From the NCBI RefSeq assembly GCF_004210375.1, contig NC_134834.1, forward strand, positions 89,780,170 to 89,844,169: a stretch of 64,000 nucleotides of DNA. Reading direction: 5' to 3'. Shown piece after piece: positions 721 to 36,905 of the stretch. The stretch's first letter is position 1, and each line of letters starts with the position of its first letter. Made by a program: the position numbers and the translations under genes. Origin of the DNA: Tachypleus tridentatus. Taxonomy: Eukaryota; Arthropoda; Merostomata; Xiphosura; Limulidae. Below the pieces are notes generated by a model. The model made no database searches and was not told the DNA's origin. It saw nothing but the letters and a program-made list of their open reading frames with translations.

Positions 721-811
721 CACAAAGCTGCACAATGGGCTATCTGTGCTCTGCCCACCATGGGTATCGAAACTAGGTTTTTAGCGTTGTAAGTCCACAG
801 ACATACCACAG
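721..811 (-). repeat. Second SINE family fragment (tRNA-like)
   Basis: The plus strand reads cacaaagctgcacaatgggc, then a degraded tRNA-like segment (gggtatcgaaactaggttt, gttgtaagtccacagacata). On the minus strand this gives a B-box-like GGTTTCGATACC-type element. The same sequence recurs inside the minisatellite at about 36745-36905 and 37660-37805. The fragment lies inside the LINE remnant and separates its ORF1 tail from its 5' part. Confidence 0.5.
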
Positions 812-5432: not shown

Positions 5433-6283
5433 TTTGTAATGAATTTGATCTACATGTGTTTACGTTATCAAATATATTAAATTCAATTTACTGCTAGTTA
5501 TATAATTAACAAAAAATAGATATGCTACTTCAGAAAAAGATAAACAATTTATTATTATTAATTGAAAACAAATAAATAAAATTATCAAAACATAAAGAGT
5601 AAAGTAGTGTGTTTTCCATCTTGAAGGATTCTTTCTTCATACACAATTATCTTTTAGGAAATACAATTAAACCTAAAGATGTTAAAAAAAATACTTTCCT
5701 ATTATATAAATTTATTTTTAGGTATCATTGTTATTATTGTAAACGCTATAAGGCTTGGTATATGTGAAAGGTATAACTTATCGGTTTTCTTCTTAGATTC
5801 CTTATCCTTATTGTTTATTTTCTCCCCAAGTTTCACTATATTAAACTTTCCCAGTGTTACATTTTCTTAACCTTCTTTAGGTAATATTTAAATCCATTGT
5901 TAAACATCCGTACTGGAATATATAGAAAAGGAAAAAAATCAGGAAAAAATTGTTTTCGAATTTAGTACTTTAAATAAAATTAACAGAATAATTAATAAAA
6001 GAAGCCAATCATATAGAGTCTTATAAAAGAAGAATCTAAAGAATATTTCCCAAGTAAGCAAAATCGTTACCTCGTTAATATTACATTTTGCTCGTCGTAA
6101 TTATTATGTACACACAGTTTATGGCAGTTCACATTTATAAAAAGCCTGTGTTTATATATACCTTTTGTTTGTATAACTTGAAACTAATGAAAGGCTTACA
6201 GTAATCGAAAACACCTCTTTCTCGTGTAAATCAGCTTTAGGTACGTTATTACTAAGTAAGGGTTCTGTTATCTTTCAATAATT
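5433..6283. other. Intergenic, nothing recognised
   Basis: AT-rich sequence upstream of the gustatory receptor pseudogene. A 63-codon hydrophobic frame at 5679-5870 is not supported by any motif. Confidence 0.5.
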
Positions 6284-7646
6284 ATGGACTTGAATAGTCG
6301 AATAATTCAATCAAATCATTTCCATGTTAGGCCGATATCGTCCGTAAGTGTGGACATGGTCAGCGCAAGAACTCAATCTAATGAAGAACATGAGATGCCA
6401 CAATTGTCTGTCGGTACTGACCTAGTGAGTTATAAATCTAAGTCATATCAAGAACCAAAAGTGAGACAAGTTGTCCCGTTTTATTCCTTATTGATGTGCT
6501 CATTGAGAATCTTGGGTTTTGATCTTTTAGATTTATCCACAGAAGTTACGGTTCAACGAGGATGTGGAAAATATTGTAAACTAAGAAAGTTTTGGAACAT
6601 CATAACAGTTGTGTATGCTGTTTATAACTTAGGTTATAGTATTTCTCTTTGTGTCATCCACAGCAGATATGAGTTTTTGTTGTATATGTCCTGGATTTTA
6701 AGAAACGCTGGTTCTTTTCTTACTGTGATTATGTTTTTGATAAATAAACGAAAGACTGGACACTTGAGTAAAACTATAATCAAAAACATGATGTGCGCGG
6801 ACAAAAGTCAATTGTTGGGTTTAAAGAAATTATGCTTGTGTTCTGTTATCAGTGGTTGGATTTATGTAATCCTATTTTTCACAACCGGATCGCTGAGCCT
6901 ACTATCGAAATATGACTCAGACGTTATTCTAGAAAGAAGCTATTTTGGTATGTCAATTAAAAGTTTCAACGGAAAATGTTTTGTTTACCTTTTTCTCCTT
7001 CTAAATTATGCCATGTACAGTATTGTTGTTTTGGGAACTCTTGTGTTTGTTCCAATATTTTATATTTATCTTTCTGTAGCAGTAGAAATATGTTTTAGAA
7101 AGTTTAACCGTAGAATTGAAAAGCTGACGAAATCTAAAGAACCCATTATTTTGGAACACATTAAGGAACTGTCTTTAAACATGACAAGTTAAGAGAATTG
7201 GTAGACTTTATGAATATTTGTCTGTCATTCGCTCCTCTGGTGTGGTATAGTTTATTACTATTGGTCACTAGCTTAGAAGTAATGTATCTACTTAGAGTTT
7301 CAACGGCTTGGGAACTTTATTGGATTTTTGAAATTTTTGCATACATTCATCTTTGGCTGATATTTCTGGAAACAACTGTTGTGTAGGAAAGCGTATCAAG
7401 ACGTCACAATTGTCTGTATTTCTCATTCAACTGTTAGCGAGGAAAACTAATGTTACAACTCCTTTTCATACTTTTTTCCACGTCCAAATGCTGGAAAAGC
7501 AAGTTTGTAGTCCTGTTTTTCTTATGGCAGGAGGATGACTTACTATATCACAAAAACTTATTTTATCTGGTTTTGGTGTAGTTTTCACCTATACTGTGTT
7601 TTAAATTGAGCTAACGCCAAAAGCTTTAAAACAAATTACTGGTTAA
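6284..7646 (+). pseudogene. Gustatory receptor-like pseudogene (7TM chemoreceptor)
   Basis: The first frame (6284-7192, 302 residues) aligns end to end with the intact receptor at 52213-53601. Shared blocks include VVxFYSLLxCSLRIxG, YxLGYSISLxVI, WILRNxxSFLT and GKCFxYLxLLL. Similarity then continues through two frameshifts, at about 7180 (before the DKLRELxD segment) and about 7385 (before GKxxKTSQLS). It ends with in-frame stops at a Cys-equivalent position (AGG-stop-L) near 7538 and inside the C-terminal signature (FTYTVF-stop-IEL). The insect GR signature TYhhhhhQF is therefore broken twice. Several transmembrane stretches survive in the first frame. The multiple independent lesions argue for a real pseudogene rather than a single sequencing error. 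It is on the opposite strand to its paralogue. Confidence 0.85.
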
Positions 7647-11262: not shown

Positions 11263-12338
11263 TTTTGTAAAATTACTTTGTCTAGAAATATAACCCAGCA
11301 GAGAGAGACTTCACTCGGAGACACCGACGATTGCACACCTTATTTATAAATCAAATATCTATTTTATATGTATGTACATTTGAAAATTAACTTTCCAATA
11401 ACGACAAGAGTCTTTGCTATTGGAGTATAAAACAAAATAGGTGAGTAGAAACAACAAGAACAAAAAAAGTTACAAAACAGTAAAAGCAAAATTGAAAACT
11501 TAGCAGTGAAAGGAAAACGCGAAGGAAACGTCTTCAGATAAGTAGGAACTCGATACGTGGCACGCTTCCGACTCGCGAACGGTAGTAGCCGAGTGTGACA
11601 GGTGCTGTTCCTTTATTCATTCTGTTTCTATAACGTCAGAGAATTATTCCCAGTTTTTGCAACGTACTTTCATTAATATCCATACACTTCTTTAGCGAGA
11701 GACAAAAGAGCGACTTCTGAGGCACTCCCACTAGACGGTAGCCAGCGTTTAATACTATTTTGTCGTAGGAAGAGACGGAGGCGAGTACACACGACTTCTC
11801 CCGATGGAAACCAAAATACACGTTAATAAACACAGGTAAATTAATGTGTATAGCCAAATGACGAATAAAAGAAGGTGAATATTAAATAATTCTAATCCCG
11901 ATGCAAGCTCGTGTTAAAATCTAAATTCTGCACACACATCTGCAAGTGATGGGATGTGAGCCTGTGTAACGAGAGTAAAATACCAGATTTTGCGAAAGTA
12001 GGTCCGAAAGAAATATAAAGAAGACATAAACACCAACATGTGACTAAAAGACGTTTGAGAAAAGTTCTCAGAGGCTAAATTGATCAATTTAAGTGTTCCA
12101 TGTCAATGACACACACGCCTGTGAGCGACAGTTTCCATATCCCCGAAATGACACTCGTGTTGTTCCGGGGATGTGTAACGCAAACCAGAGTTATCAGGCT
12201 CCACTTTCCAGCGTCCTCCAGTAAAAGTGAATTCCTAAAGCATCTTTTATATTTCACAGCTAGGAAATTTTGGGCTGCGAGAACGATTTTCTTTCAGAGT
12301 AACACTTAAAAAAAACCAAATAAGAAAAGAATTAAACT
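11263..12338 (+). other. Partial 5S intergenic spacer at the left edge of the array
   Basis: This is colinear with 19002-20077 of the next unit. It lacks the two 400-bp subrepeats because the array edge falls just after them. Short frames here (for example 12100-12309 plus, 11636-11857 minus) are repeated in the other spacers with differences and show no protein motif. Confidence 0.8.
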
Positions 12339-12377
12339 GTCATCGTTCATACCACGTTGAAAGCGCCGGTTCTCGTC
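12339..12377 (+). rRNA. 5S rRNA gene, 5' third (nt 1-39), interrupted
   Basis: GTCATCGTTCATACCACGTT and the following GAAAGCGCCGGTTCTCGTC match the 5' part of arthropod 5S rRNA. The first six bases pair with the last six (GATGAC) of the 3' piece at 17959-17964, which restores helix I. The gene breaks off exactly where the LINE begins. The internal Pol III control region lies beyond the break, so this piece should not promote transcription by itself. Confidence 0.93.
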
Positions 12378-12496
12378 ATCGAGTACAGACGTGTTTTTCG
12401 AGCTCCTCATTGCCTTAGTGTAAATTTAACAGCTAAGCCTAGTGAGCGTGTAGTTCTTTTTTTTGCTAGATTTTGTATTTTTCAAGTTGTTTGACG

Positions 12497-13590
12497 ATGT
12501 CTTCATCAACCAAGAAGGTCATGGAAGTTATGCGTCGTACAGTTTTTGTTGAAACGACTAATTCAAGCCATGGGGACGTTATCCATTCTGTTATTTCTAC
12601 GTTTGGTGCTGCTTCGGTCACTGCTGTAGTTCCTCGCCCGGGTGGATATGAGGTAACTTTTGTTCTTCCCGACGATGTGGACCTGGCTATAGATGCTGGT
12701 CTAACTGTAAATGGTGTGCACTGTTCGGCTAATGGTGTCACTAAACGTACTATTACTGTGTCATTTATGGACGTACCCGAATATATCGACGATGATATTA
12801 TACTAAATAAACATAAAGATTATGATTGTGAGGTGAAAAGCCCTATTGTGTGGAAGAGGGACCAGGGCATATACTTAGGTATACGCCATGTTCGTGTGTG
12901 TTTTAGTGAGAAGTGTATCTCTTTGCCGTACGTAGTAAAAGTTTTTGATCCTTTGGGCAAGGCCGTAATGGTAAAAGTGAAGCATGATCGCCAGTCAAAA
13001 GTATGTAATTTATGTTTGGGGGCGGATCATCTATATCGCGATTGCCCCCCAGTTTATATGCCGACATTGTCATATGCAGGGACACGTCCGTCAACGTTGT
13101 CCCAAGCTTGTTGTTCCTCGAACTTCCTCTAGTGACGACGCTGAAGTGGCCACGTCTACTATTCTCGTGACGCCGCTGAAGTAGACACGGCTGCTCCCTC
13201 TCGTGCAGTGCCTCATGATGTTGACACCATTTCTGTTTGTCTACGCGTTGATTCGGAGGTTTCCATTTCAGGTGAGGCTGCAGCTACCCATCGGGTGTTG
13301 GGACGATGTTTCTGCCCGACGATCGACGGTTTCTGGTGGGGCCAGGGAACGGGCAAGTAGTCACCCCCCTGCTGCAAGTCGCAATTTTGATCGTCACTTC
13401 CCGCCACTTCAGGTTAGTGGTGTGAGTACCGCCGGCGATGTGGAGGTGCCTCTTCCTCGTCGTTGGGAGGTATGCTAGTGTGGTGGCAATGTCTCCTGGT
13501 GACACTTCTAAGAAGGGCAGTGGACGAAAACGGGTGTCGGACGTGCCAATACTACGGATATCTCGGGCGAAGGCGGTGTCGCAGCCTTAA
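12497..13590 (+). pseudogene. LINE ORF1 (CCHC nucleic-acid-binding protein), copy A, frameshifted
   Basis: This corresponds residue for residue to the intact ORF1 at 20238-21332. I chose ATG 12497 (MSSSTKKV) because the upstream extension starts at a TTG. Residues up to the first zinc knuckle (CNLCLGADHLYRDC) are in frame. A C-run with one extra base at about 13045-13051 then shifts the frame just before the second knuckle (CRHCHMQGHVRQRC). Further single-base differences lie near 13160 and 13255. The lesions sit in or near homopolymers, so both real decay and consensus error are possible. Confidence 0.88.
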
Positions 13591-13753
13591 ATGTGTTTTT
13601 TGTGACAGTTTGTTTGTTTCAGTTCGTGTAAGACTGTCATTTATTGTTATTTGAACTTTGTGCATATTTGCTTAGATCTTTACATTTATTCTTGTTATTT
13701 TTGTGTTTGTGACAGTTTCCTTTCAATTCTTGTACCTTTACTTTCTCTTTAGC

Positions 13754-16700
13754 ATGGTACATTTACTAAGGGTGGGAGTTTTGAATTGTAATGGGTTGCG
13801 TAATGTTAGTAAGCTGGCTTATTACCTGGATTACTTTGTTACTAATTTGATGTTGTTTGTTTACAGGAAACGTTTTCACTGATAATTTTATGATGTCGTT
13901 CTGAAATTTTGGCCAGGTGTAGTTTTTTTAATAATTCTACTTCTGGCCGACAAGGGTTGCCATCTTGGTACAGCAGTTTTGTGTGATAATGTTACATTCT
14001 TTTCTTCTGATGGGGTGGGTAGGGTTCTGACAGTCAAATTCAGTTTCGAGTCTTTGTCTTATCTGTTATCATCTGTGTACGCTCCTCGCGATATCTCCGA
14101 GCGACGGGAATTTTCCAAAACTTGGAGTATTGTTTGGATGGTTGCACGGGATTGCTTGTTGTGGGAGATTTCAATTGTGTGGTGGATGTGGCACGCGATC
14201 GATTTCCGGTCCGTTTCTACCGAGACGCCAGCCGTTCGGCTTTTGTCCAGTTTCTTAATAGGTTTGATTTGCTTGATGCGCATTCACTCATATCGCCGAC
14301 TACACCTGGTTTCACATGGAAGCGTTTTGTTAATGGTGAGATGATGTCGTCACGTATTGACAGGGTTTTGCTTTCTTCTACCTTGCAGGGGACTGTCCAA
14401 CGTTTCCGTACGTTGTGGTTTCCTGCTACAGATCACGCTTTATTGGGCTTCGACCTTACTCTGCGACCAATTGTCAGAGGTCCTAATTTCTGGCACTTCA
14501 ATAACCAGTTATTGAGGGATGCCGAATATGTGAAAGCCATTAAGCTGTTGATCGCCAGAAGTCGTAGTTGGTCAGTTTATGGGACTGATAAAATTAAATG
14601 GTATGAACAATTGAAATGCGCGTTCCGTTTACTTACCGAGCGTTATTCGATTCTTCGTGCGCGGGCATCCCGTTCTCGCAAATGTCAGCTTGAGTCGTCC
14701 ATCAATCGTGAGCTTCGAAAACTGACCCGTTTCCCTGGTAGATCTAAGGTCAAATTGTATGAACTTGAAGACGCATTGGAGACTTTGGATCACGATACCA
14801 TAGAGGGGCGAGGATTCGATCTCATATTCGTTGGTTTGAGGAGGGTGAGATCTACGTCTTACTTTCTTCGTATGGAAAAGGTCCGTCAAAGCAGAATTGA
14901 GTTTAGATCCATGCTCACTGATAGGGTGTGGAGGTGTCCGGTGTGGACGATATCGCTGCTGTTTTACATCAGTATTATTCCGCACTGTACTCTAAGGATA
15001 TCGTTCTGCAGGCAGACATAGATTTAGTTCTCTCATTTGTTGATCGAACTCTTTCCAGTGAACAAGCTAATACTTGTGATGCTCCATTCACGGTTCCGGA
15101 AGTTATCGCTGCTTTAGACAGTTTACCGCTGGGCAAATCTCCTGGTTTGGATGGTTTTACCTCCGAATTTTTCAAATATTTTCTACCTCTTTTGTTGACG
15201 ACTTTTTATCTGTCTTGTCTCAACTGTTTCACTCTCCACAGTTGCTCCGTACAATGTGTTCTGGGGTAATTGTTCCTATCCCGAAAGGGGGGGATCGACG
15301 GTTGGCGGCTAACAGTCGGCCTTTGACATTGCTTTGTACTGACTATAAGCTTTTGGCCAAAGTGCTGGCTCGTCGCCTTTCGTCTGTGATCTCCAGCTTA
15401 GTTTCAGATGACCAATCCGGGTGTATACCTGGACGGACGTTGCTGATACTCCATTAACACTCGTTTTGCTATTGCAATCTTTAGCACGTACCGGCCAGGG
15501 TGGAATCTTTTTGAAGCTCGATCAGATGCAAGCTTTTGATCGGGTGGCCTATGACTATCTATTTCAACTTCTTCTGCGTATGGGTTTTGGTGCTACTTTT
15601 GTTCATTGGGTTCGTCTTTGCTATACTTCTATTTCTAGTTGTGTAAAGTTTAATGGATTTCTCACTAATGATTTTGCTATTACTCGGGGTATTCGTCAAG
15701 GATGCCCCATGTCTGCTCTACTTTACGTTCTCAGTGTCGAACCGTTACGAAATATGTTAGTCCATAATGTACATATTACTGGTATTGGTGGTGATGTGCT
15801 ACTCACCACGCCTTCACTTACTTATCAGCATGCTGATGATACCACCTTAACCTTACGAGACGCCGAATCTTGCCGCATGTGTTGGATGTCTGCCAAACTT
15901 TTGGCAAAGCTACTGGTGGGAAGATCAACTGGACCAAGAGTCAGGGTTTGTGGGTTGGGTGTTTGGCCTCTTCTGCAGACTTCGTCCTTGGTGAGTTGAG
16001 AATTTCCCAGGATCCTATTCGGATTTTGGGAATAGTTTTCCACTCTAATTTCGATGTCATGCTGCAAGATACGTGGCAGGGTGTATTGCGCAGGGTATCT
16101 CGTGTCTTGGTGTCGTGGCGATTTCGTTCTTTGTCGCTAAAGGGTAAATCTCTTGTGGTGAACTCCTTGGTGGCATCGGTGTTATGGTACCCGTTGAATA
16201 TACTCCCGTTGCCAAGACAGTTTGAGGCTAGATTTCGCAAATGTATACTGGATTTTATTTGGCGGGGAGGTATACATAAAGTGGCATACGGTATTCTGAT
16301 CCGGAGTTATGATTGTGGAGGTATCAACTTGGTTGATATTAACACTCGTAAACTCGCATTCCGTTTGAAGTTGTTGCAGCGTTGTTTGGATGCTTCTTGT
16401 CCTTCCACCTTGCGACAACTTCTTTCTGGATTTTTCTTGTTATGGTAATCTCTCTTTAAGCTTTCGGATTCTTCAATGCCGTATTTTGCCACGTTTTGTG
16501 AAATCGTTACCTTTCTATATTCAGGAAATGTTTCATGCCTGGAAGGTTCTTCTTGGGGATAAAGGGATTGTCCCAGCTCTCTTTCCCCAAATTTTGATGA
16601 ACCTTTGTTTTCAATCCGGCTATTGTTGATGTTCGCCACCGAACATTTCATTTTCTGAATTTATTAACGCAGGTTTGGTTCAGGTCCGTCATTTAATGTA

Positions 16701-17599
16701 CGAGGTGCTCCTGCTTTTCTTCCGGTGGGGGCAGTGATTGAAATGTGTACGGACGCTGACCCGTTGGCCAATGCCCGCACAATTTTTTCACATTTTCATA
16801 TGCTCAAGGAGGCGTTGCCTGTGGAGTGGTTGCCGATTTTGTCTACCCAGCCGGCTCCTCTTCCGTCGTCCACATGTGTTGTGGATTTATATTTTCTGGA
16901 CCACTCCGATAATCGAGTTCATTTTCAAGGTTTATCTGTGCGGCAACTGGTGGGATATTTACAGTTTTCACTCGCTACTAATTTCCCTGCTCCATTCTAC
17001 TGGGGGGATATTGTTCCTCCTGGAGACTGGAAACGCATTCGTAAAACGCTTATTCTTCTTTTGTAGGTTTTTTTTTGTTTGTGATGTGGATTATTTACTC
17101 TGGTTGCGGGCGATTACCACAAATGTCAAGCTGATACATATGGACAGACATCCCACAGGGTTGTGCACTTTCTGTTCCCAGGCGCCGGAAACCATAGACC
17201 ATCTGTTTTCCAATGTCCTTTTGTACAGCCCTTGTGGTCATATGTATATAAATTATTGGCATTTTATTTTGGATGTCCCATATCAAACTGGGTATGGAGG
17301 AGATGCCTCTTGGTGGGATCTCATCCTTCGTTACCAGGAGATGCTGGAACATATTCCGTTTAATTACAAGTTTGGCACGTCAGGTTATATGTTCTGCTCG
17401 TTCAGTTTCTTTGGCACGAAATCGCGTCATTCATTTAATTTCCATGTTTAAAGTGCGTGTACGGAGACATATATATCTTCATTATCATAGATCTTTGTTA
17501 CATAACTCATTAAATGTTTTTTATTCTGGGTATTCTTATATTGGTAGCTTGGTAACCCAAGGTGCCCAAGGTTATTTCTTGTGTACGTTGTTAAGATAA
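13754..17599 (+). pseudogene. LINE ORF2 (endonuclease-reverse transcriptase), copy A, frameshifted
   Basis: Starts at MVHLLRVGVLNCNGLRN, the usual opening of an AP-like endonuclease. Seen in order: VVGDFNCVVD near 14155 and SRIDRVLLSS with DHALLGFDLTL near 14350-14460 (endonuclease); PLGKSPGLDGFTSEFF near 15125; VPIPKGGDRR near 15275; LDQMQAFDRV (RT motif A) near 15515; GIRQGCPMSALLY (motif B) near 15690; YQHADDTTL (motif C, HADD instead of YADD) near 15825. The C-terminal region ends in a basic segment (SMFKVRVRRHIYLHY) and TAA at 17599. Total length is about 1,280 codons, normal for the clade. At least half a dozen single-base frameshifts break it, mostly at positions different from those in copy B. 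Confidence 0.88.
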
Positions 17600-17872
17600 G
17601 TTGTTATTTCATTATATTTTTGTTACCAATGAAAGATCCATTGATTTCTTGTTTGTTAATGTTCATTATAATGTTTGTTGGATTACCTGCTGTTCCAATT
17701 ACCTCTTTTATTTCTTTTTCCTTAATTTTATTAACTTTGTGGTAATTTTCAGCATGGTAATCTATAGAGCTATTGTTACATGCTAATTCATTAACTTGTG
17801 TTTTATTTGTTGTATTTCTGTGTATACCCCCTCGTTGAGGTGGGATAAATAAAGAGAAAAAAAAAAAAAAAA

Positions 17873-17964
17873 GCCGGTTCTCGTCCGATCACCGAAGCTA
17901 AGCAACGGCGGGCTCGGTTAGTACTTGGGAGGGTGACCACCTGGGAATACCGGGTGATGATGAC
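17873..17964 (+). rRNA. 5S rRNA gene, 3' two-thirds (plus 13-bp duplication)
   Basis: After the duplicated gccggttctcgtc the sequence continues as a normal 5S 3' portion (79 nt, 17886-17964). It contains box A (AGCTAAGCAACGGCG, 5S positions 50-64) and box C (TGGGAGGGTGACCACCTG, positions 80-97) of the TFIIIA-binding internal promoter, and ends with GATGAC, which pairs with the 5' GTCATC. Joined to 12339-12377 without the LINE it makes a 118-nt 5S gene. This fragment keeps the promoter elements although the gene is broken. Confidence 0.95.
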
Positions 17965-17975
17965 TTTTTTTTTTT
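17965..17975 (+). terminator. RNA polymerase III terminator of the 5S gene
   Basis: A run of eleven T directly follows the 5S 3' end, the standard Pol III stop. The next bases, cacgttgaaa, repeat ten bases of the 5S 5' region. Confidence 0.85.
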
Positions 17976-20077
17976 CACGTTGAAATTTGTAGGTCTCGCA
18001 AAGAGTTGATCGATACGTCTCACTTTTTTTCACAATTTCTGATTTAAGAGATAAAAAATCCTTCCGAAAGAGAGAGAAAGAAAGTGGTTGACTCAATTGA
18101 AGTGCCTTAATACTGGGTATTTATTATGGTAAACTGTTGGGAAAACATTTTGTTATAGGAACTAATCAACTTTTCCATCAACAAGTCAGTTGATAAAACA
18201 CGCTTCGAAAACGAAATTCAAACATTCATTTCCTGCGATCGTTCAAGAAAAGTAGCAGCTCTCTAAGCAGGTGGCGTTAGCCGCGTTCCATTTCAATTTA
18301 AACCAAACCCCTCCAATCAGACGTACATTGGAGAAAAGAAATAAACTATCTTAGCGGGTCGATCTTCGGAATGCACAAAGGGTGCGAAATCTACAAAACA
18401 GAAACTTCGTTAATGAGTAGATCCAGCCCACATCAATCTAAGGCAGTCTTATACAGATGGAATTTAAAACGTTTCCCTATTTCACAAAATTGTCTCGCTC
18501 GTGCACGTTTTGCCTAAGAAAAAGCAATTGTCGAGGGCTCTGTCTGCTACACAGAAAAGGCGATGCGACAAATATTTCGAGTTTCCTTACATAACGTTCG
18601 TTCGCTACGTTTTGTAAAATTACTTTGTTTTAGAAATATCGTTGAAGAAAAGTAGCATCTCTATAAGCAGGTGGCGTGAGCCGCGTTCCATTTCACTTTA
18701 AACCAAACACCTCAATCAGACGTATATTGAAGAAAAAAGAAATAAACTATCTTCGCGGGTCGATCTTCGGAATGCACAAAGGGTGCGAAATCTACAAAAC
18801 ATAAACTTCGTTAATGAGTAGATCCAGCCCACATCAATCTAAGGCAGTCTTATACAGATGGAATTTAAAACGTTTCCCTATTTCACAAAATTGTCTCGCT
18901 CGTGCACGTTTTGCCTAAGAAAAGCAATTGTCGAGGGATCTGTCTGCTACACAGAAAGGCGATGCGACAAATATTTCGAGTTTCCTTACATAACGTTCGT
19001 TCGCTACGTTTTGTAAAATTACTTTGTCTAGAAATATAACCCAGCAGAGAGAGACTTTACTCGGAGACACCGACGATTGCACACCTTATTTATAAATCAA
19101 ATATCTATTTTATATGTACGTACATTTGAAAATTAACTTTCCAATAACGACAAGAGTCTTTGCTATTGGAGTATAAAACAAAATAGGTGAGTAGAAACAA
19201 CAAGAAAAAAAAGTTACAAAACAGTAAAAGCAAAATTGAAAACTTAGCAGTGAAAGAAAAAACGCGAAGGAAACGTTTCAGATAAGTAGGAACTCGATAC
19301 GTGGCACGCTTCCGACTCGCGAACGGTAGTAGCCGAGTGTGACAGGTGCTGTTCCTTTATTCATTCTGTTTCTATAACGTCAGAGAATTATTCCCAGTTT
19401 TGCAACGTACTTTCATTAATATCCATACACTTCTTTAGCGAGAGACAAAAGAGCGACTTCTGAGGCACTCCCCTAGACGGTAACCAGCGTTTAATACTAT
19501 TTTGTCGTAGGGAGAGACGAAGGCGAGTACACACGACTTCTCCCGATGGAAACCAAAATACACGTTAATAAACACAGGTAAATTAATGTGTATAGCCAAA
19601 TGACGAATAAAAGAAGGTGAATATTAAATAATTCTAATCCCGATGCAAGCTCGTGTTAAAATCTAAATTCTGCACACACATCTGTAAGTGATGGGATGTG
19701 AGCCTGTGTAACGAGGTAAAATACCAGATTTTGCAAAAGTAGGTACGAAAGAAATATAAAGAAGATATAAACACCAACATGTGACTAAAAGACGTTTGAG
19801 AAAAGTTCTCAGAGGCTAAATTGATCAATTTAAGTGTTCCATGTCAATGACACACACGCCTGTGAGCGACAGTTTCCATACCCCCGTAATGACACTCGTG
19901 TTGTTCCGGGGATGTGTAACGCAAACCAGAGTTATCAGGCTCCACTTTCCAGCGACCTCCAGTAAAAGTGAATTCCTAAAGCATCTCTTATATTTCACGG
20001 CTATGAAATTTTGGGCTGCGACAACGATTTTCTTTTAGAGTAACACTTAAAACACCAAATAAGAAAAGAATTAAACT
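17976..20077 (+). repeat. 5S intergenic spacer, unit A to B, with two 400-bp subrepeats
   Basis: About 2.1 kb separates one 5S terminator from the next 5S start. It contains a direct tandem duplication, 18241-18640 and 18641-19038. Both start gttcaagaaaagtagc or gttgaagaaaagtagc, pass through gcaggtggcgt, gcgggtcgatcttcggaat, gtagatccagcccacatc and ctgtctgctacacagaaa, and end in ttgtaaaattactttgt. The remainder (19039-20077) is single-copy within the unit. No gene is seen; the short frames are not conserved between copies. Confidence 0.85.
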
Positions 20078-20116
20078 GTCATCGTTCATACCACGTTGAA
20101 AGCGCCGGTTCTCGTC
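20078..20116 (+). rRNA. 5S rRNA gene, 5' third, second unit
   Basis: Identical over all 39 bases to 12339-12377 and broken at the same nucleotide by LINE copy B (gccggttctcgtc at 20104-20116, then aacgagtacagacg). Confidence 0.93.
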
Positions 20117-20237
20117 AACGAGTACAGACGTGTTTTTCGAGCTCCTCATTGCCTTAGTGTAAATTTAACAGCTAAGCCTAGTGAGTGTGTACTTCTTTTT
20201 TTTTTGCTAGATTTTGTATTTTTCAAGTTGTTTGACG

Positions 20238-21332
20238 ATGTCTTCATCAACTAAGAAGGTCATGGAAGTTATGCGTCGTACAGTTTTTGTTGAAACGACT
20301 AATTCAAGCCACGGGGACGTTATCCATTCTGTTATTTCTACGTTTGGTGCAGCTTCGGTCACTGCTGTAGTTCCTCGCCCGGGTGGATATGAGGTAACTT
20401 TTGTTCTTTCCGACGATGTGGACCTGGCTATAGATGCTGGTCTAACTGTAAATGGTGTGCACTGTTCGGCTAATGGTGTCACTAAACGTACTATTACTGT
20501 GTCATTTATGGACGTACCCGAATATATCGACGATGATATTATACTAAATAAACTTAAAGATTATGATTGTGAGGTGAAAAGCCCTATTGTGTGGAAGAGG
20601 GACCAGGGCATATACTTAGGTATACGCCATGTTCGTGTGTGTTTTAGTGAGAAGTGTATCTCTTTGCCGTACGTAGTAAAAGTTTTTGATCCTTTGGGCA
20701 AGGCGGTTATGGTAAAAGTGAAGCATGATCGCCAGTCAAAAGTATGTAATTTATGTTTGGGGGCGGATCATCTATATCGAGATTGTCCCCAGTTTATATG
20801 CCGACATTGTCATATGCAGGGACACGTCCGTCAACGTTGTCCCAAGCTTGTTGTTCCCCGAACTTCCTCTAGTGACGACGCTGAAGTGGCCACGCCTACT
20901 ACTTCTCGTGACGCCGCTGAAGTAGACACGGCTGCTCCCTCTCGTGCAGTGCCTCATGATGTTGACACCATTTCTGTTTGTCCACGCGTTGATTCGGGTT
21001 CCCCTTCAAAGAAGGCTGCAGCTACCCATCGGGTGGTGGCCGATGTTTCTGCCCGACGATCGACGGTTTCTGGTGGGGCCAGGGAACGGGCAAGTAGTCA
21101 CCCCCCTGCTGCAAGTCGCAATTTTGATCGTCACTTCCCGCCACTTCCGGTTAGTGGTGTGAGTACCGCCGGCGATGTGGAGGTGCCTCTTCCTCGTCGT
21201 TGGAGGTATGCTAGTGTGGTGGCAATGTCTCCTGGTGACACTTCGAAGAAGGGCAGTGGACGAAAACGGGTGTCGGACGTGCCAATACTACGGGTATCTC
21301 GTGCGAAGGCGAAGGCGGTGTCGCAGCCTTAA
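20238..21332 (+). CDS. LINE ORF1 protein, two CCHC zinc knuckles, intact
   Basis: An open frame of 364 codons from ATG 20238 (MSSSTKKVMEVMRR). An upstream in-frame TTG extension is not preferred. The N-terminal 150 residues form a domain of the kind placed before the knuckles in Tx1-clade ORF1 proteins (ITVSFMDVPEYIDDD, then IRHVRVCFSEKCISLPY). Residues of about 178-210 carry two CX2CX4HX4C knuckles: CNLCLGADHLYRDC and CRHCHMQGHVRQRC. The C-terminal third is Ser/Pro/Ala-rich and low-complexity, and ends in a basic tail (KKGSGRKR, RAKAKAV). The family role is to bind the element's RNA and assist integration. ORF2 starts 162 bp downstream. This is the only full-length LINE frame in the window. 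Confidence 0.9.
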   Translation: MSSSTKKVMEVMRRTVFVETTNSSHGDVIHSVISTFGAASVTAVVPRPGGYEVTFVLSDDVDLAIDAGLTVNGVHCSANGVTKRTITVSFMDVPEYIDDDIILNKLKDYDCEVKSPIVWKRDQGIYLGIRHVRVCFSEKCISLPYVVKVFDPLGKAVMVKVKHDRQSKVCNLCLGADHLYRDCPQFICRHCHMQGHVRQRCPKLVVPRTSSSDDAEVATPTTSRDAAEVDTAAPSRAVPHDVDTISVCPRVDSGSPSKKAAATHRVVADVSARRSTVSGGARERASSHPPAASRNFDRHFPPLPVSGVSTAGDVEVPLPRRWRYASVVAMSPGDTSKKGSGRKRVSDVPILRVSRAKAKAVSQP

Positions 21333-21494
21333 ATGTGTTTTTTGTGACAGTTTGTTTGTTTCAGTTCGTGTAAGACTGTCATTTATTGTTATTTGAACTT
21401 GTGCATATTTGCTTAGATCTTTACATTTATTCTTGTTATTTTTGTGTTTGTGACAGTTTCCTTTCAATTCTTGTACCTTTACTTTCTTTTTAGC

Positions 21495-24400
21495 ATGGTA
21501 CATTTACTAAGGGTGGGAGTTTTGAATTGTAATGGGTTGCGTAATGTTAGTAAGCTGTCTTATTATCTGGATTACTTTGTTACTAATTTTGATGTTGTTT
21601 GTTTACAGGAAACGTTTTTTACTGATGATTTTCCTGATGTCGTTCTGAAATTTTGGCCAGGTGTAGCTTTTAATAATTCTACTTCTGGCCGACAAGGGGT
21701 TGCCATCTTGGTACAGCAGTTTTGTGTGATAATGTTACATTCGTTTCTTCTGATGGGGTGGGTAGGGTTCTGACAGTCAAATTCAGTTTCGAGTCTTTGT
21801 CTTATCTGTTTATCATCTGTGTACGCTCCTCGCGATATCTCCGAGCGACGGGAATTTTCCAAAACTTGAGTATTGTTTGGATGGTTGCACAGGATTGCTT
21901 GTTGTGGGAGATTTTAATTGTGTGGTGGATGTGGCACGCGATCGATTTCCGGTCCGTTTCTACCGAGACGCCAGCCGTTCAGCTTTGTCCAGTTTCTTAA
22001 TAGGTTTGATTTGCTTGATGCGCATTCACTCATATCGCCGACTACACCTGGTTTCACATGGAAGCGTTTTGTTAATGGTGAGATGATGTCGTCACGTATT
22101 GACAGGGTTTTGCTTTCTTCTACCTTGCAGGGGACTGTCCAACGTTTCCGTACGTTGTGGTTTCCTGCTACAGATCACGTGCCTTTATTGGGCTTCGACC
22201 TTACTCTGCGACCAATTGTCAGAGGTCTATAATTTCTGGCACTCAACAACCAGTTATTGAGGGATGCCGAATATGTGAAAGCCATTAAGCTGTTGATCGC
22301 CAGAAGTCGTAGTTGGTCAGTTTATGGGACTGATAAAATTCAAATGGTATGAACAATTGAAATGCGCGTTCCGTATACTTACCGAGCGTTATTCGATTCT
22401 TCGTGCGCGGGCATCCCGTTCTCGCAAATGTCAGCTTGAGTCGTCCATCAATCGTGAGCTTCGAAAACTGACCCGTTTCCCTGGTAGATCTAAGGTCAAA
22501 TTGTATGAACTTGAAGATGCATTGAGACTTTGGATCACGATACCATAGAGGGGGCGAGGATTCGATCTCATATTCGTTGGTTTGAGGAGGGTGAGAGATC
22601 TACATCTTACTTTCTTCTTCGTATGGAAAAGGTCCGTCAAAGCAGAATTGAGTTTAGATCCATGCTCACTGATAGGGTGTGGAGGTGTCCGGTGTGGAAG
22701 ATATCGCTGCTGTTTTACATCAGTATTATTCCGCACTGTACTCTAAGGATATCGTTCTGCAGGCAGACATAGATTTAGTTCTCTCATTTGTTGATCGAAC
22801 TCTTTCCAGTGAACAAGCTAATATTTGTGATGCTCCATTCCACGGTTCCGGAAGTTATCGCTGCTTTAGACAGTTTACCGCTGGGCAAATCTCCTGGTTT
22901 GGATGGTTTTACCTCCGAATTTTTTCAAATATTTTCTACCCTTTTTGTTGACGACTTTTATCTGTCTTGTCTCAACTGTTTCACCCTCCACAGTTGCTCC
23001 GTACAATGTGTTCTGGGGTAATTGTTCCTATCCCGAAAGGGGATCGACGGCTGGCGGCTAACAGCCGGCCTTTGACATTGCTTTGCACTGACTATAAGCT
23101 TTTGGCCAAAGTGCTGGCTCGTCGCCTTCGTCTGTGATCTCCAGTTTAGTTTCAGATGACCAATCCGGGTGTATACCTGACGGACGTTGCTGATACCCAT
23201 TAACACTCGTTTTGCTATTGCAATCTTTGCACGTACCGGCCAGGGTGGAATCTTCTTGAAGCTCGATCAGATGCAAGCTTTGATCGGGTGGCCTATGACT
23301 ATCTATTTCAACTTCTTCTGCGTATGGGTTTTGGTTCTACTTTGTTCATTGGGTCAATCTTTGCTATACTTCTATTTCTAGTTGTGTAAAGTTTAATGGA
23401 TTCCTCACTAATGATTTTGCTATTACTCCGGGTATTCGTCAAGGATGCCCCATGTCTCTATGCTCTACTTTACGTTCTCAGTGTCGAACCGTTACGAAAT
23501 ATGTTAGTCCATAATGTACATATTACTGGTATTGGTGGTGATGTGCTACCACCACGCTCTTCACTTACTTATCAGCATGCTGATGATACCACCTTAACCC
23601 TGAGACGCCGAATCTTTGCCGCATGTGTTGGATGTCTGCCGAACTTTTGGCAAAGCTACTGGTGGGAAGATCAACTGGACCAAGAGTCAGGGTTTGTGGG
23701 TTGGTGTTTGGCCTCTTCTGCAGACTTCTGTCCTGGTGAGTTGAGAATTTCCAGGATCCTATTCGGATTTTGGGAATAGTTTTCCACTCTAATTTCGATG
23801 TGATGCTGCAAGATACGTGGCAGGTGTATTGCGCAGGGTATCTCGTGTCTTGGTGTCGTGGCGATTTCTGTTCTTTGTCGCTAAAGGGTAAATCTCTTGT
23901 GGTGAACCCTTGGTGGCATCGGTGTTATGGTACCCGTTGAATATACTGCGTTGCCAAGACAGTTTGAGGCTAGATTTCGCAAATGTATACTGGATTTTAT
24001 TTTTGGCGGGGAGGTATACATAAAGTGGCATACGGTATTCTGATTCGGAGTTATGATTGTGGAGGTATCAACTTGGTTGATGTTAACACTGTAAACTCGC
24101 ACATTCCGTTGAAGTTGTTGCAGCGTTGTTTGATGCTTCTTGTCCTTCCACCTTGCGACAACTTCTTTCTGGATTTTTTTTATTAAGTAATCTCTTAAGC
24201 TTTCGGATTCTTCAATGCCGTATTTTGCCACGTTTTGTGAAATCGTTACCTTCTATATTCAGGAAATGTTTCATGCCTGGAAGGTTCTTCTTGGGATAAA
24301 GGGATTGTCCCAGCTCCTCTTTCCCCCAAATTTTGATGAACCTTTTGTTTTTCAATCCGGCTATTGTTGATCGCCACCGAACATTTCATTTTCCTGAATT

Positions 24401-25331
24401 TATTAACGCAGGTTTGGTTCAGGTCCGTCATTTAATGTACGAGGTGCTCCCTGCTTTTCTTCCGGTGGGGGCAGTGATTGAAATGTGTACGGACGCTGAC
24501 CCGTTGGCCATGCCCGCACAATTTTTCACATTTTCATATGCTCAGGAGGCGTTGCCTGTGGAGTGGTTGCCGTTTTTGTCTACCCGGCTCTTCTCCTCCG
24601 TCGTCCACACGTGTTTGTGGATTTATATTTTCTGGACCACCTGATAATCGAGTTCATTTTCAAGGTTTATCTCTGCGGCAACTGGTGGGATATATACAGT
24701 TTTCACTCGCTAATAACTTCCCTGCTCCATCTCTACTGGGGATATTGTTCCTCCTGGAGACTGGAAACGCATTCGTAAAAACGCTTATTCTTCTTTGTTG
24801 GTTTTTTGTTTGTGATGTAGATTATTTACCTGGTTGCGGGCGATTACCACAAATGTCAAGCTGATACATATGGACAGACATCCACAGGGTTGTGCACTTT
24901 CTGTTCCCAGGCGCCAGAAACCATAGACCATCTGTTTTCCAATGTCCTTTGTACAGCCCTTGTGGTCATATGTATATAAATTATTGGCATTTTATTTTGA
25001 TGTCCCATATCAAACTGGGTATGGAGATGCCTCTTGAGTGGGATCTCATCCTTCGTTACCCAGGAGATGCTGGAACATATTCCGTTTAATTACAAGTTTG
25101 GCACGTCAGGTTATATATGTTCTGCTCGTTCAGTTTTTTTTGGCACGAAATCGCGTCATTCATTTAATTTCCATGTTTAAAGTGCGTGTACGGAGACATA
25201 TATATCTTCATTATCGTAGATCTTTGTTACATAACCTCATTAAATGTTTTTTTATTCTGTGTATTCTTATGTTGGTAGCTTGGTAAACCCAAGGTGCCCA
25301 AGGTTATTTCTTGTGTACGTTGTTAAGATAA
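21495..25331 (+). pseudogene. LINE ORF2 (endonuclease-reverse transcriptase), copy B, heavily frameshifted
   Basis: Opens MVHLLRVGVLNCNGLRN and stays in frame through LQETFFTDDFPDVVLKFWPG to a frameshift near 21720. Later pieces match copy A: SRIDRVLLSS near 22090, PLGKSPGLDGFTSEFF near 22870, the LDQMQA motif A near 23260, and YQHADDTTLTL near 23565. Many one-base insertions and deletions separate them, and the C-terminal region (24400-25330) is split over all three frames. Because frameshift positions mostly differ between the two copies, a comparison identifies the likely original frame at nearly every site. Neither copy can encode the protein as written. Confidence 0.85.
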
Positions 25332-25595
25332 GTTATTTCATTATATTTTTGTTACCAATGCAAGATCCATTGATTTTTTGTTTGTTAATGTTCATTATAA
25401 TGTTTGTTGGATTGCTGTTCCAATTACCTCTTTTATTTCTTTTTCCCTTAATTTTATTAACTTTGTGGTAATTTTTCAGCATGGTAATCTACAGAGTTAT
25501 TGTTACATGCTAATTCATTAACTCCTGTGTTTTATTTGTTGTATTTCTGTGTATACCCCTCGTTGAGGTGGGATAAATAAAAAAAAAAAAAAAAA

Positions 25596-25688
25596 CCGGT
25601 TCTCGTCCGATCACCGAAGCTTCAAAGCAACGGGTGGGCCTGGAGTACTTTGGGAGGGTGACCACCTGGGAATACCGGGTGAGATGAC
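25596..25688 (+). rRNA. 5S rRNA gene, 3' two-thirds, diverged copy
   Basis: Same position as 17873-17964 but with several changes in box A and the following stem (gaagcttcaaagcaacgggt, then gggcctggagtactttggga) and one small deletion near the 3' end (GGGTGAGATGAC). Box C (TGGGAGGGTGACCACCTG) is unchanged. It would be unusual for functional 5S; either this broken copy drifts freely or the local consensus is poor. Confidence 0.85.
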
Positions 25689-25700
25689 TTTTTTTTTTTT
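25689..25700 (+). terminator. RNA polymerase III terminator, second unit
   Basis: Twelve T follow the 5S 3' end, again succeeded by cacgttgaaa. Confidence 0.8.
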
Positions 25701-27562
25701 CACGTTGAAATTTTGTAGGTCTCTGCAAAGAGCTGGATACGATTCCCTTTACCTTTTCACAATTTCTGATTTAAGAGATAAAAATCCTTCCCGAAAGAGA
25801 GAAAGAAAGTGGTTGACTCAATTGAAGTGCCTTAATACTGGGTATTTATTATGGTAAACTGTTGGGAAAACATTTTTTATTATAGGAACTAATCAACTTT
25901 CCATCAACAAGTCAGTTGATAAAACACGCTTCCGAAAACGAAATTCAAACATTCATTTCCTGCGATCGTTCAAGAAAGTAGCAGCTCTCTAAGCAGGTGG
26001 CGTTAGCCGCGTTCCATTTCAATTTAAACCAAACCCCTCCAATCAGACGTACATTGGAGAAAAGAAATAAACTATCTTAGCGGGTCGATCTTCGGAATGC
26101 ACAAAAGGGTGCGAAATCTACAAAACAGAAACTTCGTTAATGAGTAGATCCAGCCCACATAATCTAAGGCAGTCTTATACAGATGGAACGTTAAACTATT
26201 TCCCTAAACTCACAAAATGCGTGCACGTTTTGCCTAAGAAAAACCGATTGTCGAGGGCTCTGTCTGCTACACAGAAGAAGGCGATGCGACAAATATTTCG
26301 AGTTTTCCTTACGCAACGTTCGTTCATACGTTTTGTAAAATTGCTGTTTTTTAGAGAATATCTTTTGAAGAAAGAGTAGCTCTCTGCTAAGCAGGTGGCG
26401 TGAGCCGCGTTCCATTTCACTTTTAAACCAAACAATCAATGACGTTAGTAGAGAAAAAGAAAGAAATAAACTATATTACTGGTCGATCTTGGAATGCACA
26501 AAGGGTGTGAAATCTACAAACTTAAACTTCGTTGTGAGTAGATCCAGCCCACATCAATCTAAGGCAGTCTTATACAGATGGAATTTAAAACGTTTCCCTA
26601 TTTCGCAAATTGTCTCTGCTTTGCATCGTTTTGCCTAAGAAAAAGCAATTGTCGAGGGATCTGTCTGCTACACAGAAAAGGCGATGCGACAAATATTTCG
26701 AGTTTCCTTACATAACGTTCGCTGATTGTAAAATTACTTTGTCTAGAAATATAACCCAGCAGAGAGAGACTTACTGACACATCGACGATTGCATTCCTAT
26801 TTATAAATCAAGTATCTATTTTAAAACTACGTACATTTTGAAGTTAACTTTCCATAACGACAAGAGTCTTTGCTATTGGGTATAAAACAAAATAGGTGAG
26901 TGGAAACAACATGAAAAAAAAAGTTACAAGGAACAGTAAAGGCAAAATTGAAAACTTAACGAGTGAAAGAAAAACTTGAAGGAAACGTTTCAGATAAGTA
27001 GGAACTCGTGCAGTGGCACGCTTCCGACTCGCGAACGGTAGTAGCCGAGTGTGACAGGTGCTGTTCCTTTTATTCATTCTTGTTTCTATAACGTCAGAGA
27101 ATTATTCCCAGTTTTTTACGTACTTATCATTAATATCCATACACTTCTTTGGCGAGGAGACAAAAGGAGAGCGGCTTCTGGGAGCACTCCCCACTAGACG
27201 GTGGCTCCAGCGTTTAATACTATTTTGTCGTAGGGGAGACAGAGGCGAGCACACGACTTCTCGATGGAAACCAAAATACACGTTAATAAAACACAGAGTA
27301 AATTAATGTAAATAGCCAAATGACGAATAAAAGAAGGTGAATATTATAATAATTCTAACCAGTTGCAAGCTCGTGTTAAAATCTAAATTCTGCACACACA
27401 CATCTGTAAGTGATGGGATGTGAGCCTGCAATGTAACGAGAGTAAAATACCAGATTTTGCAAAGTAGGTCCGAAAGAAATATAAAGAAGACATAAACACC
27501 AACATGTGATCTAAAGACGTTTGAGAAAAGTTCTCAGAGGCTAAATTGATTCAATTTAATGT
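25701..27562 (+). repeat. 5S intergenic spacer, unit B to C, cut by the scaffold gap
   Basis: Colinear with 17976-19835. The two subrepeats are at about 25968-26363 and 26364-26755, with many small indels. The sequence runs into N bases about 260 bp before the next 5S 5' piece would be expected. Confidence 0.85.
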
Positions 27563-28062
27563 NNNNNNNNNNNNNNNNNNNNNNNNNNNNNNNNNNNNNN
27601 NNNNNNNNNNNNNNNNNNNNNNNNNNNNNNNNNNNNNNNNNNNNNNNNNNNNNNNNNNNNNNNNNNNNNNNNNNNNNNNNNNNNNNNNNNNNNNNNNNNN
27701 NNNNNNNNNNNNNNNNNNNNNNNNNNNNNNNNNNNNNNNNNNNNNNNNNNNNNNNNNNNNNNNNNNNNNNNNNNNNNNNNNNNNNNNNNNNNNNNNNNNN
27801 NNNNNNNNNNNNNNNNNNNNNNNNNNNNNNNNNNNNNNNNNNNNNNNNNNNNNNNNNNNNNNNNNNNNNNNNNNNNNNNNNNNNNNNNNNNNNNNNNNNN
27901 NNNNNNNNNNNNNNNNNNNNNNNNNNNNNNNNNNNNNNNNNNNNNNNNNNNNNNNNNNNNNNNNNNNNNNNNNNNNNNNNNNNNNNNNNNNNNNNNNNNN
28001 NNNNNNNNNNNNNNNNNNNNNNNNNNNNNNNNNNNNNNNNNNNNNNNNNNNNNNNNNNNNNN
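27563..28062. other. Assembly gap, exactly 500 N
   Basis: Exactly 500 N bases, a conventional placeholder for a gap of unknown size. It falls inside the tandem array, so the true number of 5S/LINE units here is unknown. Confidence 0.98.
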
Positions 28063-34314: not shown

Positions 34315-34590
34315 GGCTCGGCATAGCCTAGCGCGTAAGGCGTGTGCCTCGTAGTCCGAGGGTCGCGGGTTCGTGCCCGCGTCGCGCTAAACATGCTCGC
34401 CCTCACAGCCGTGGGGGTGTATAAAGTGACGGTCAATCCCACTATTCGTTGGTTTAGAGTAGCCCAAGAGTTGGCGGTGGGTGGTTATGACTAGCTTCCT
34501 TCCCTCTAGTCTTACACTGCTAAATTAGGGACGGCTAGCACAGATAGCCCTCGAGTAGCTTTGTGCGAAATTCCCAAACAAACAAACAAA
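34315..34590 (+). repeat. tRNA-headed SINE, well preserved
   Basis: The head ggctcggcatagcctagcgc through B box GGGTTCGTGCCC is followed by the full body and an (aaac)n tail (caaacaaacaaacaaa). Confidence 0.88.
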
Positions 34591-35699
34591 TAAAGAATTT
34601 CAAAAGAATAAGAAAAAAGAACGCGTTTTGTTAGCTTAGATGCTTAATTTCGAATCCTTAAAAACGAAAATCAACGATACGACTTTACATGTAACATATT
34701 ATATAGATCTGTTACGGTCGCAATTAATTAATCGTCAAAAGAAATAGGAAATCTTTATTGCATATAAATTATTAAAGTAATATATGTTACGTGTTTGTAT
34801 AGCTACGTAATTAGTATCATAACAATACTATCACAGAACAACAACAACAATAATACATTTACACATTGTTAAACTCATGTCACAGAAGACTTGTAAAATA
34901 GAACATTACAAGCAGTTTCATAATTTTTTAAGAATATTTAAATATCACTCAATTATGTATATTAATTCCGAAGAAGCCGCAAAGGCGAAACATGGTTTGA
35001 ATAAAAATATATTATTTTATATTTAACTGGCATGTAAAGGTCGTTTCTCTGAACTTTATCAAAACATTAAAATAAAGTGCAACAATCATATATTTTCTCT
35101 TAACAACAATTATCTATGTGATATTGTAAACACGTCTTGGTGCAAAGAGTAAAACCTTAGAAACCAGTTCTACAGAAAAGTATCAAAAATATTATAAAAC
35201 AAGTTCCAGATAAAATGGATTTGTTTTCTTTTCTCGAATTAGTCGTATAATTTTTTGTCTACTCAGGCGGATGGAAAAATCGCTCGAACTCGAAAACATG
35301 TATTTACTTTGTGTTTGCGGTATTTTAGTAATGTTAGCTTCAATTTATTTAAGACTCAATCGATCAAATTCCACAAAACATTTGCCAAAAGCCATCAAGC
35401 TGTTGATAAGTTTCCTGTCCGCTACGCTAAAACAGGGGTTCGATTTACTAAGTTCCGACACACTGTACCTTGAAATCGTGTTCCTCATATATATTAAAAA
35501 ATAGCACATAAAGAAAATTACCATGGCTAGAAATTAAAAAAGCTATCTCATATCAGTTATGAACAAGAAATATCCAAATTTTAGGTAAGTAATGAGACTT
35601 CACAAAATTAGATTACATATTTTTTTTTCATAATTAAAAATTGTTTAATTATCTCATGTTAGAAGAATTTCACCGTCAAAGATATGTGGAATTAAGGGA
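34591..35699. other. Intergenic, with a hammerhead-like motif near 34969
   Basis: Mostly AT-rich. At 34969-35000 ccgaagaagccgcaaaggcg and aaac resemble a hammerhead core (CUGANGA, GCC/GGC stem II, GAAAC) with one change in the first box. The overlapping short frames at 35255-35504 have no motif. Confidence 0.35.
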
Positions 35700-36744: not shown

Positions 36745-36905
36745 GAGTTCTACACTCTTTGCACGAAGCGTTTGTGTGTTGTTTTTATAGGAAAGCAACA
36801 TTAGGCTATCTGCTAAGAACACCGAGGGGAGTCGAACACCTGATTTTAGCGTTGTAAATTCGTAGACATACCGTAGTACTAGCAGGGTGCTCGCATGAAG
36901 CAACT
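36745..36905 (-). repeat. Second-family SINE inside the minisatellite, copy 1
   Basis: Plus strand: gtttgtgtgttgtttttata, ggctatctgctaagaacacc, gtcgaacacctgattttagc, gttgtaaattcgtagacata. On minus, the latter is a tRNA-like head. Very similar to 37655-37805, including the flanks. Confidence 0.65.

Follow-up and report, generated by a model that had tools for sequence, protein, structure and literature searches.

A 5S ribosomal RNA (rRNA) gene in the horseshoe crab Tachypleus tridentatus is cut in two by a retrotransposon, raising the question of whether such an element recognizes 5S genes alone or a wider class of targets. The gene lies in a 64,000-nucleotide (nt) stretch of contig NC_134834.1 (positions 89,780,170–89,844,169), hereafter the window, and the element is a long interspersed nuclear element (LINE). 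Judging from this copy and its relatives across the host genome, the LINE very probably inserts inside genes transcribed by RNA polymerase III (Pol III) by target-primed reverse transcription, with a 5S-derived leader on its RNA. As part of the same reading, it would represent a recently active family equipped with an apurinic/apyrimidinic endonuclease (APE)-type domain, a reverse transcriptase (RT), a first open reading frame (ORF1) with knuckle-like motifs, and an A-tail. The original prediction, made from the letters of the window, took the host to be probably a horseshoe crab, and the genome indeed contains 19 coagulin-family matches, compared with none in 14 control genomes; the family is not known outside horseshoe crabs. 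The interrupted gene is laid out as follows.

12339–12377, plus strand: left part of the 5S rRNA gene, nt 1–39, the same sequence as in uninterrupted 5S genes
12359–12377, plus strand: 5S nt 21–39, identical to the 19-nt 'leader' of the 36 tabulated non-5S copies
12365–12377, plus strand: left copy of the 13-bp repeat (5S nt 27–39)
12378–17872, plus strand: LINE copy 1, full length, 5.5 kb, with an A16 tail at 17857–17872
17873–17964, plus strand: right part of the 5S rRNA gene, nt 27–118 (Rfam RF00001, 40.4 bits), with the right 13-bp repeat at 17873–17885
17965–17975, plus strand: T-run after the 5S gene (by position, a Pol III terminator)

The 118-nt 5S gene is split after nt 39, and nt 27–39 are present on either side of the LINE; the repeated sequence, GCCGGTTCTCGTC, occupies 12365–12377 and 17873–17885, with a third occurrence at 20104 that belongs to a second copy described below. 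The element is thus lodged precisely inside a 5S gene, as first proposed, with nt 1–39 at 12339–12377 and nt 27–118 at 17873–17964. The proposed pairing of the gene ends (GTCATC with GATGAC) is also seen in the minimum free energy structure of the joined 118-nt empty site, which adopts the three-way 5S layout, and the T-run follows at 17965–17975. The case for an empty 5S site comes from uninterrupted genes: nt 21–51, spanning the insertion point, occur exactly 109 times in the genome, and the joined site has 40 uninterrupted matches at 99% identity (best 40 of 464 candidates). It does not come from the fold energy, which is unremarkable (z −1.46; 15 of 200 shuffles fold equally well), and the downstream part by itself scores barely above the Rfam cut-off of 38 bits. 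Elsewhere in the genome (contigs are numbered C, loci L), an uninterrupted 5S array with a 1.84-kb unit occupies C9:24.990–25.015 Mb, and a large inverted 5S array at C10:113.308–113.468 Mb runs on the plus strand up to 113.380 Mb and on the minus strand from 113.397 Mb.

We searched the host genome (2.17 Gb, 205 contigs) with queries made of LINE sequence only. The 5′ query (best 40 of 180 candidates scored, 30 fetched) gave 19 copies in 5S nt 1–39 and 11 at transfer RNA (tRNA) loci, and the 3′ query (best 40 of 225 scored, 30 fetched) gave 16 copies in 5S genes and 14 elsewhere. An exact 28-base pattern from the 3′ end occurs 137 times in the genome, its reversed control not once, and 100 of these 137 places were listed. 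The resulting 3′ tally covers 102 loci read, 100 of them with the exact 3′ end; L072 and L073 do not have the exact pattern and were omitted, the flank of L072 being tRNA-Leu by eye. These 100 ends mark the youngest-looking copies and are not independent, given heavy tandem amplification. They lie in 5S genes (42), tRNA-Val (38), tRNA-Leu (8), tRNA-Asp (2), tRNA-Ser (2), tRNA-Met (1), a Thr-like tRNA (1), tRNA-derived short interspersed nuclear elements (SINEs; 2), 7SL genes (2), and sequence with no recognised target (2), where the Ser, Thr, Leu-CAA, and SINE labels were assigned by eye. Pol III-type sequences thus hold 98 of the 100 young 3′ ends, with 52 in tRNA or tRNA-like genes.

These assignments vary in strength. 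In copies at Val, Leu, Asp, and Met, ARAGORN recognizes a complete tRNA on the upstream side of the LINE, as it does at Phe in a close relative. The broken tRNA of one Ser copy falls short of its Rfam cut-off (27.1 versus 29 bits). Both 7SL copies (L089, L090) align to a full 7SL gene at 99% identity across 122 bp, and the Rfam match of L089 (31.9 bits, E 2.9e-5) is below the family cut-off of 70. With both sides read, we count ~16 distinct junction types by eye, the right side being damaged in Met and Leu-TAG. The 7SL genes themselves stand in tandem arrays with ~3.8–4.0 kb units (C3:78.26–78.39, 81.59–81.61, and 49.54–49.57 Mb; 26 genes scored), an arrangement that is unusual as far as we know.

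With 58 of the 100 young copies outside 5S, the LINE is not the 5S-targeting element of the original prediction. The tabulation of flanks, proposed there as a check, cuts both ways: most copies do lie outside 5S, but 56 of these 58 are in other Pol III-type sequences and not in unrelated DNA. Because of this, the target is wider than 5S rather than random.

What do these targets share? The first target base behind the A-tail is nt 27 in 5S. Genes for tRNA are broken at the base of the anticodon stem. The distance from this break to the anticodon is ~8 nt for Leu-CAG, Leu-CAA, Ser, and Met and 9 nt for Val and Asp, or 10 nt should the tail conceal a template A. The 7SL break is at nt ~35, and L091 and L092 begin further inside their target. 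Target choice by DNA sequence alone, through an endonuclease motif AARGC|G and not through Pol III factors, is a plausible if tentative explanation: this motif is common to 5S, Leu, and Ser, whose breaks look alike (TGAAAGC|GCCGG, CTAAGGC|GCTGG, and TTAAGGC|GATGG, respectively). However, the Val (TTATCA|CATCC), Asp (GAGTA|TCCCC), and 7SL (TAGCT|ACTTGG) sites have no such motif, and the motif-less tRNAs are still broken at the matching position.

Where both ends of one copy were paired, target duplications measure 51–60 bp in Val, 60 bp in Asp, 105 bp in Leu-CAA, 21 bp in Ser, and ~65 bp in the Phe copy of the 85% relative. The Leu-CAG value of ~719 bp is a distance, of which pieces of 350 and 223 bp align, and the 7SL duplication (~267 bp) ends in the terminator T-run. 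The gene upstream of the LINE is usually whole, Ser apart (Leu-CAA is complete by eye, 7SL by BLAST), and two uninterrupted tRNA-Val loci, L035 and L161, match the left and right flanks of copy L084/L018 at 96–98%. Ten of the 100 3′ flanks show a tRNA half followed directly by the leader of the next LINE, a pattern expected if a rebuilt gene is hit repeatedly or if unequal crossing-over has occurred.

The target duplication of 12–13 bp originally proposed for the window stood in part: the repeat is present, but it is entangled with the 19-nt leader in full-length 5S copies. We considered whether the repeat could be RNA leader only, as the truncated copy L191 (C10:113.376 Mb; 5S nt 1–22 joined to LINE ~4375) has neither leader nor duplication. 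This idea was set aside because another truncated 5S copy, L192 (C10:90.252 Mb), has a 13–14-bp duplication, and a real 13-nt stagger together with leader annealing was retained; the 13-bp repeat may therefore reflect a real staggered cut.

The 5′ ends separate 5S from all other targets. The tally comprises 57 ends, L001–L008 being omitted as repeats of copies among L039–L068. The 21 ends in 5S have a uniform junction, with 5S nt 1–39 running straight into the LINE and the leader not duplicated. In all 36 ends outside 5S, nt 21–39 of 5S stand between the target and the LINE, with at most two mismatches in 35 and a 1-nt gap in L107. The leader thus merges seamlessly at 5S and is retained at foreign targets. 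An extra G precedes it in 32 of the 36 (the target could supply this G in at least two), and a T is found immediately before the extra G in 33. A reverse-transcribed cap would leave such a G at the RNA end. Because tRNA genes have no sequence of this kind, the junctions indicate that the 19-nt 5S leader arrived with the element RNA. It is unlikely that the leader arose by the RT switching templates onto 5S rRNA, forming a chimera, instead of by read-in transcription. L1 chimeras with non-coding RNAs have been reported (PMC13174262), but the leader stops precisely at nt 39, the start point of full-length 5S copies, and every target read has the same 19 nt; a single founding 5S insertion accounts for both without a further step.

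A second LINE, inside a second 5S gene and overlooked in the first reading of the window, places the locus in a tandem array.

11263–27562, plus strand: tandem ~7.74-kb units (unit 1, 11263–19008; unit 2, 19009–26725; unit 3, cut by a gap)
20078–20116, plus strand: second 5S gene, nt 1–39
20117–25595, plus strand: LINE copy 2
20238–21329, plus strand: ORF1 of copy 2, open, 364 amino acids (aa) from the first ATG
25596–25688, plus strand: right part of the second 5S gene, with several small differences (23.2 bits, under the cut-off)

The repeat behind the A-tail of copy 2 is 12 bp long. Units 1 and 2 differ by ~2% in the 5′ flank and LINE and by a larger 10% downstream of the 5S gene, perhaps owing in part to misaligned 400-bp subrepeats. 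Because the flanks are duplicated too, ~2% apart, copies 1 and 2 are one insertion that was then duplicated, and independent hits are ruled out. Many small indels separate the two copies (0.71 indel events per substitution within the LINE) and look like unpolished long-read errors. An assembly gap of 500 N (27563–28062) directly follows the cut-off third unit, and the 5S/LINE array is probably longer than shown.

The copies of the window are one such duplicate, and clusters with identical junctions exist at C5:57.6–57.8 Mb, C13:271 Mb, and C4:105 Mb. All copies could in principle descend from a few insertions without targeting, with the LINE spreading along with 5S, tRNA-Val, and 7SL arrays by unequal crossing-over and gene conversion. 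We regard this as quite improbable: the ~16 junction types (by eye) span 5S, Val, Leu (three kinds), Asp, Ser, Met, Phe, and 7SL, duplication lengths or truncations differ between them, and diverged sister LINEs are also located in tRNA-SINE heads and 5S.

In a tree built from 1.8 kb of 30 copies (row L057 is a long branch), the 5S or tRNA target needs six changes (5–6 in bootstrap), compared with a shuffled mean of 9.1–9.3, and the starred branches force at least two changes of target. The 5S and tRNA copies are intermixed, and both targets have therefore been used within one young lineage, with clear clustering. A strictly 5S-specific, Mutsu-like LINE whose other copies strayed or moved secondarily would suit the 42 of 100 3′ ends and 21 of 57 5′ ends at the same 5S junction, and the 5S origin of the leader itself, but is hardly tenable in view of the 56 3′ ends in tRNA, 7SL, and tRNA-SINE sequences (those in tRNA at the matching position), the separate duplications of non-5S copies with both ends read, and the intermixing in the tree.

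We therefore return to insertion inside Pol III-transcribed genes with a 5S leader on the RNA, for which the A-tail, the duplications, and an L1-like second ORF (ORF2) suggest target-primed reverse transcription. The endonuclease would nick the bottom strand at a fixed site, and the nick would prime cDNA synthesis. The element RNA would begin at nt 21 of the upstream 5S sequence, which gives it the 19-nt leader, and a probable cap would account for the extra G. When the new target is another 5S gene, the end of the cDNA could anneal to nt 21–39 of the cut top strand, fixing the junction; such pairing with a top strand cut after nt 39 would yield the uniform 5S junction and the single leader copy. 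A foreign target would offer no annealing partner, so that the leader is kept, and the second cut would fall in a T-rich place such as a Pol III terminator. With the upstream gene left whole, the same site could be hit again. A similar step is postulated for R2, where rRNA retained on the RNA anneals to give uniform junctions (PMC3774820). An HDV (hepatitis delta virus)-like ribozyme was not found in 12330–12580 by Rfam (up to E 10), where an unlisted ribozyme fold is possible. A more ambitious version, which we put forward only tentatively, is that Pol III machinery or gene architecture, and not one DNA motif, guides the LINE into several Pol III gene classes; the 19-nt 5S piece would have been captured as a permanent leader that templates the 5′ junction only at 5S, and a cut at the terminator would rebuild the upstream gene for further hits.

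Several observations weigh against this account. Eleven of 28 fetched stretches predicted to hold a 5′ end (8 + 20) have no LINE start, which is present in the other 17, and the 3′ ends of L035 and L114 are in no recognised Pol III target. Many copies belong to tandem arrays, so the counts exceed the separate insertion events, and the tree shows some clustering of copies by target, 5S or tRNA (13 and 5 of 500 shuffles score as low). The AARGC|G motif is missing at Val, Asp, and 7SL. Some upstream tRNAs are degraded (L088 and L154 are not called by ARAGORN, and L083 is called Phe). The truncated 5S copies are mixed, L191 having no duplication and falling 4 nt short, and a leader gained by template switching would also tell against the account.

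The coding regions of copy 1 connect the element to known LINE groups.

12497–13132, plus strand: ORF1 of copy 1, broken by frame shift, with CCHC-like knuckles by eye
13754–17599, plus strand: ORF2 of copy 1, in several frames, with APE-type endonuclease, reverse transcriptase, and a C-terminal zinc-binding stretch
15080–15454, 15412–15996, and 15840–16445, plus strand: best RT pieces of copy 1 ORF2

ORF2 is broken in both window copies, and ORF1 of copy 2 is open over 373 codons from stop to stop. In the family, ORF1 reaches 365 aa, and 7 of 30 fetched copies keep it open for at least 364 aa; around the RT, the longest open frames measure 968 aa (a 96%-identical copy) and 1173 aa (the 85% relative). 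Because of these long open frames in other copies, working copies may exist. Pfam identifies RVT_1 in copy 1 ORF2 (4.9e-13), along with Exo_endo_phos (0.0054) and zf-RVT (1.1e-4), both below cut-off; Exo_endo_phos in copy 2 (E 7.2e-4) is also under the curated cut-off. The zf-CCHC_2 match of ORF1 is weak (E 0.055, under the cut-off), with CxxC..H..C visible by eye.

In a PDB search, L1 ORF2p is the best match for the three RT pieces (8.8e-9, 2.3e-9, and 2.3e-6), whereas R2 reaches 1e-5 for the palm and is unlisted for the other two, in keeping with the L1-group RT originally proposed. This comparison is coarse, as solved relatives are few (L1 and R2); as a control, the RT of a Jockey-like LINE in the window prefers R2 over L1. 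The endonuclease of copy 1 has a sole match at E ≤ 1, 2v0r 'LTX' (3e-4), which we take to be an L1-endonuclease variant. A provisional Tx1L RT stretch, used as a lead only, gave 80 and 74 bits versus 54 and 58 for L1, and a 195-aa RT piece has no relatives in IMG/VR or GTDB contigs. By its L1 ORF2p matches, the RT is assigned to the L1/Tx1 group; membership in the Tx1 clade is likely. Tx1 and R1 clades have APE (PMC4640811), and in one review Tx1 is grouped with the vertebrate F lineage as part of the L1 group (PMC3747384).

The history of the target preference can be glimpsed in seven diverged sisters (64–74% aa identity in the RT), drawn from the low end of the best 150 of 2756 candidates. 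Six of their seven 3′ ends lie in tRNA-derived SINE heads, five of one kind, and one lies in 5S (38.7 bits versus a cut-off of 38); the sister at C10:137.89 is in a second SINE kind, also present in the window by eye. The three sisters with a readable 5′ end all have no leader, and two have duplications of 13 bp and ~15 bp (the latter by eye). A closer relative (85%) sits at tRNA-Phe and has the leader. The use of Pol III-type targets thus seems to predate the leader. A diverged LINE with 76% DNA identity (L193, C9:41511400–41511900) starts directly after 5S nt 39/40, so that an older subfamily also made use of the 5S site.

Two kinds of tRNA-headed SINE-like repeats occur in the window, at 36785–36862, 37683–37761, and 738–796 (minus strand) and at 34341–34600 and 51171–51430; both kinds, the second by eye, are targets of sister LINEs elsewhere in the genome. 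Dense, diverged internal repeats (65–78% alike) fill 35700–37900. The Jockey-like LINE (clade by eye) occupies 55411–57209 on the minus strand, outside a 5S gene, with RVT_1 (1.4e-25) at 55411–55953, and a decayed second LINE at 40303–43328 retains an Exo_endo_phos_2 domain (2e-11). Two related, multi-pass-looking proteins, at 6260–7189 (plus strand) and 52216–53601 (minus strand), are encoded by DNA that is 72.5% alike over 1.2 kb; they have no Pfam match and are gustatory-receptor-like by eye only.

One young family is thus found inside 5S, at least five tRNA isotypes (Val, Leu, Asp, Ser, Met), 7SL, and tRNA-like SINE heads. Because some insertions bring the 19-nt leader to a matching target (5S) and others bring the same leader to a foreign one (tRNA), the family provides a natural experiment on how LINEs complete their 5′ ends. 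It may also help those seeking LINE enzymes able to place DNA in multicopy loci. Among the matches listed from full-text literature, with subscription papers and Repbase outside the scope, we found neither a horseshoe-crab 5S/tRNA LINE nor a LINE located within several classes of Pol III gene; the Pol III-directed retrotransposons tabulated in a 2018 review insert beside genes (PMC5911963).

Several known systems share features with the horseshoe-crab LINE. Dada elements of fish also insert inside tRNA (near the anticodon or A box), 5S, and small nuclear RNA genes, but are DNA transposons, not LINEs (PMC8869645). Jockey-like LINEs of Tribolium freemani also interrupt an arthropod 5S array; they belong to a different clade, interrupt 5S/satellite arrays and, compared by description, come with no stated insertion point within the gene in the portion available (PMC11202950). 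Mutsu of zebrafish is likewise a ~5.5 kb LINE with two ORFs in 5S genes (PMC11202950, PMC3706591). Keno (U2) and Dewa (tRNA-Leu spacer), also from zebrafish, are further target-specific LINEs at small-RNA loci, each named with one target, and Dewa sits in the spacer, not inside the tRNA (PMC3706591). Unlike the 5S-confined Mutsu, here compared by description only, the horseshoe-crab LINE has 42 of 100 ends in 5S and carries a 5S leader. Mutsu is a member of the Tx1 clade. The L1-clade LINEs TRE5/TRE3 and NLTR-A/B of Dictyostelium are likewise aimed at tRNA genes, TRE5 also at 5S; TRE5 ORF1 binds TFIIIB, the B box is needed, and the TRE family of amoebae inserts beside the gene, for example 40–54 bp upstream or 40–150 bp downstream (PMC5911963, PMC5391098). 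In the horseshoe-crab LINE, by contrast, the A-tail joins inside the tRNA. R2, with its restriction-like endonuclease and single ORF, differs from this LINE, which has an APE-type domain and an RT nearest to L1. The two are alike in having rRNA sequence on the RNA, with a postulated annealing at the 5′ end in R2. An HDV-like ribozyme releases the R2 RNA from its 28S co-transcript (PMC3774820); in the horseshoe-crab LINE, the Rfam search found none.

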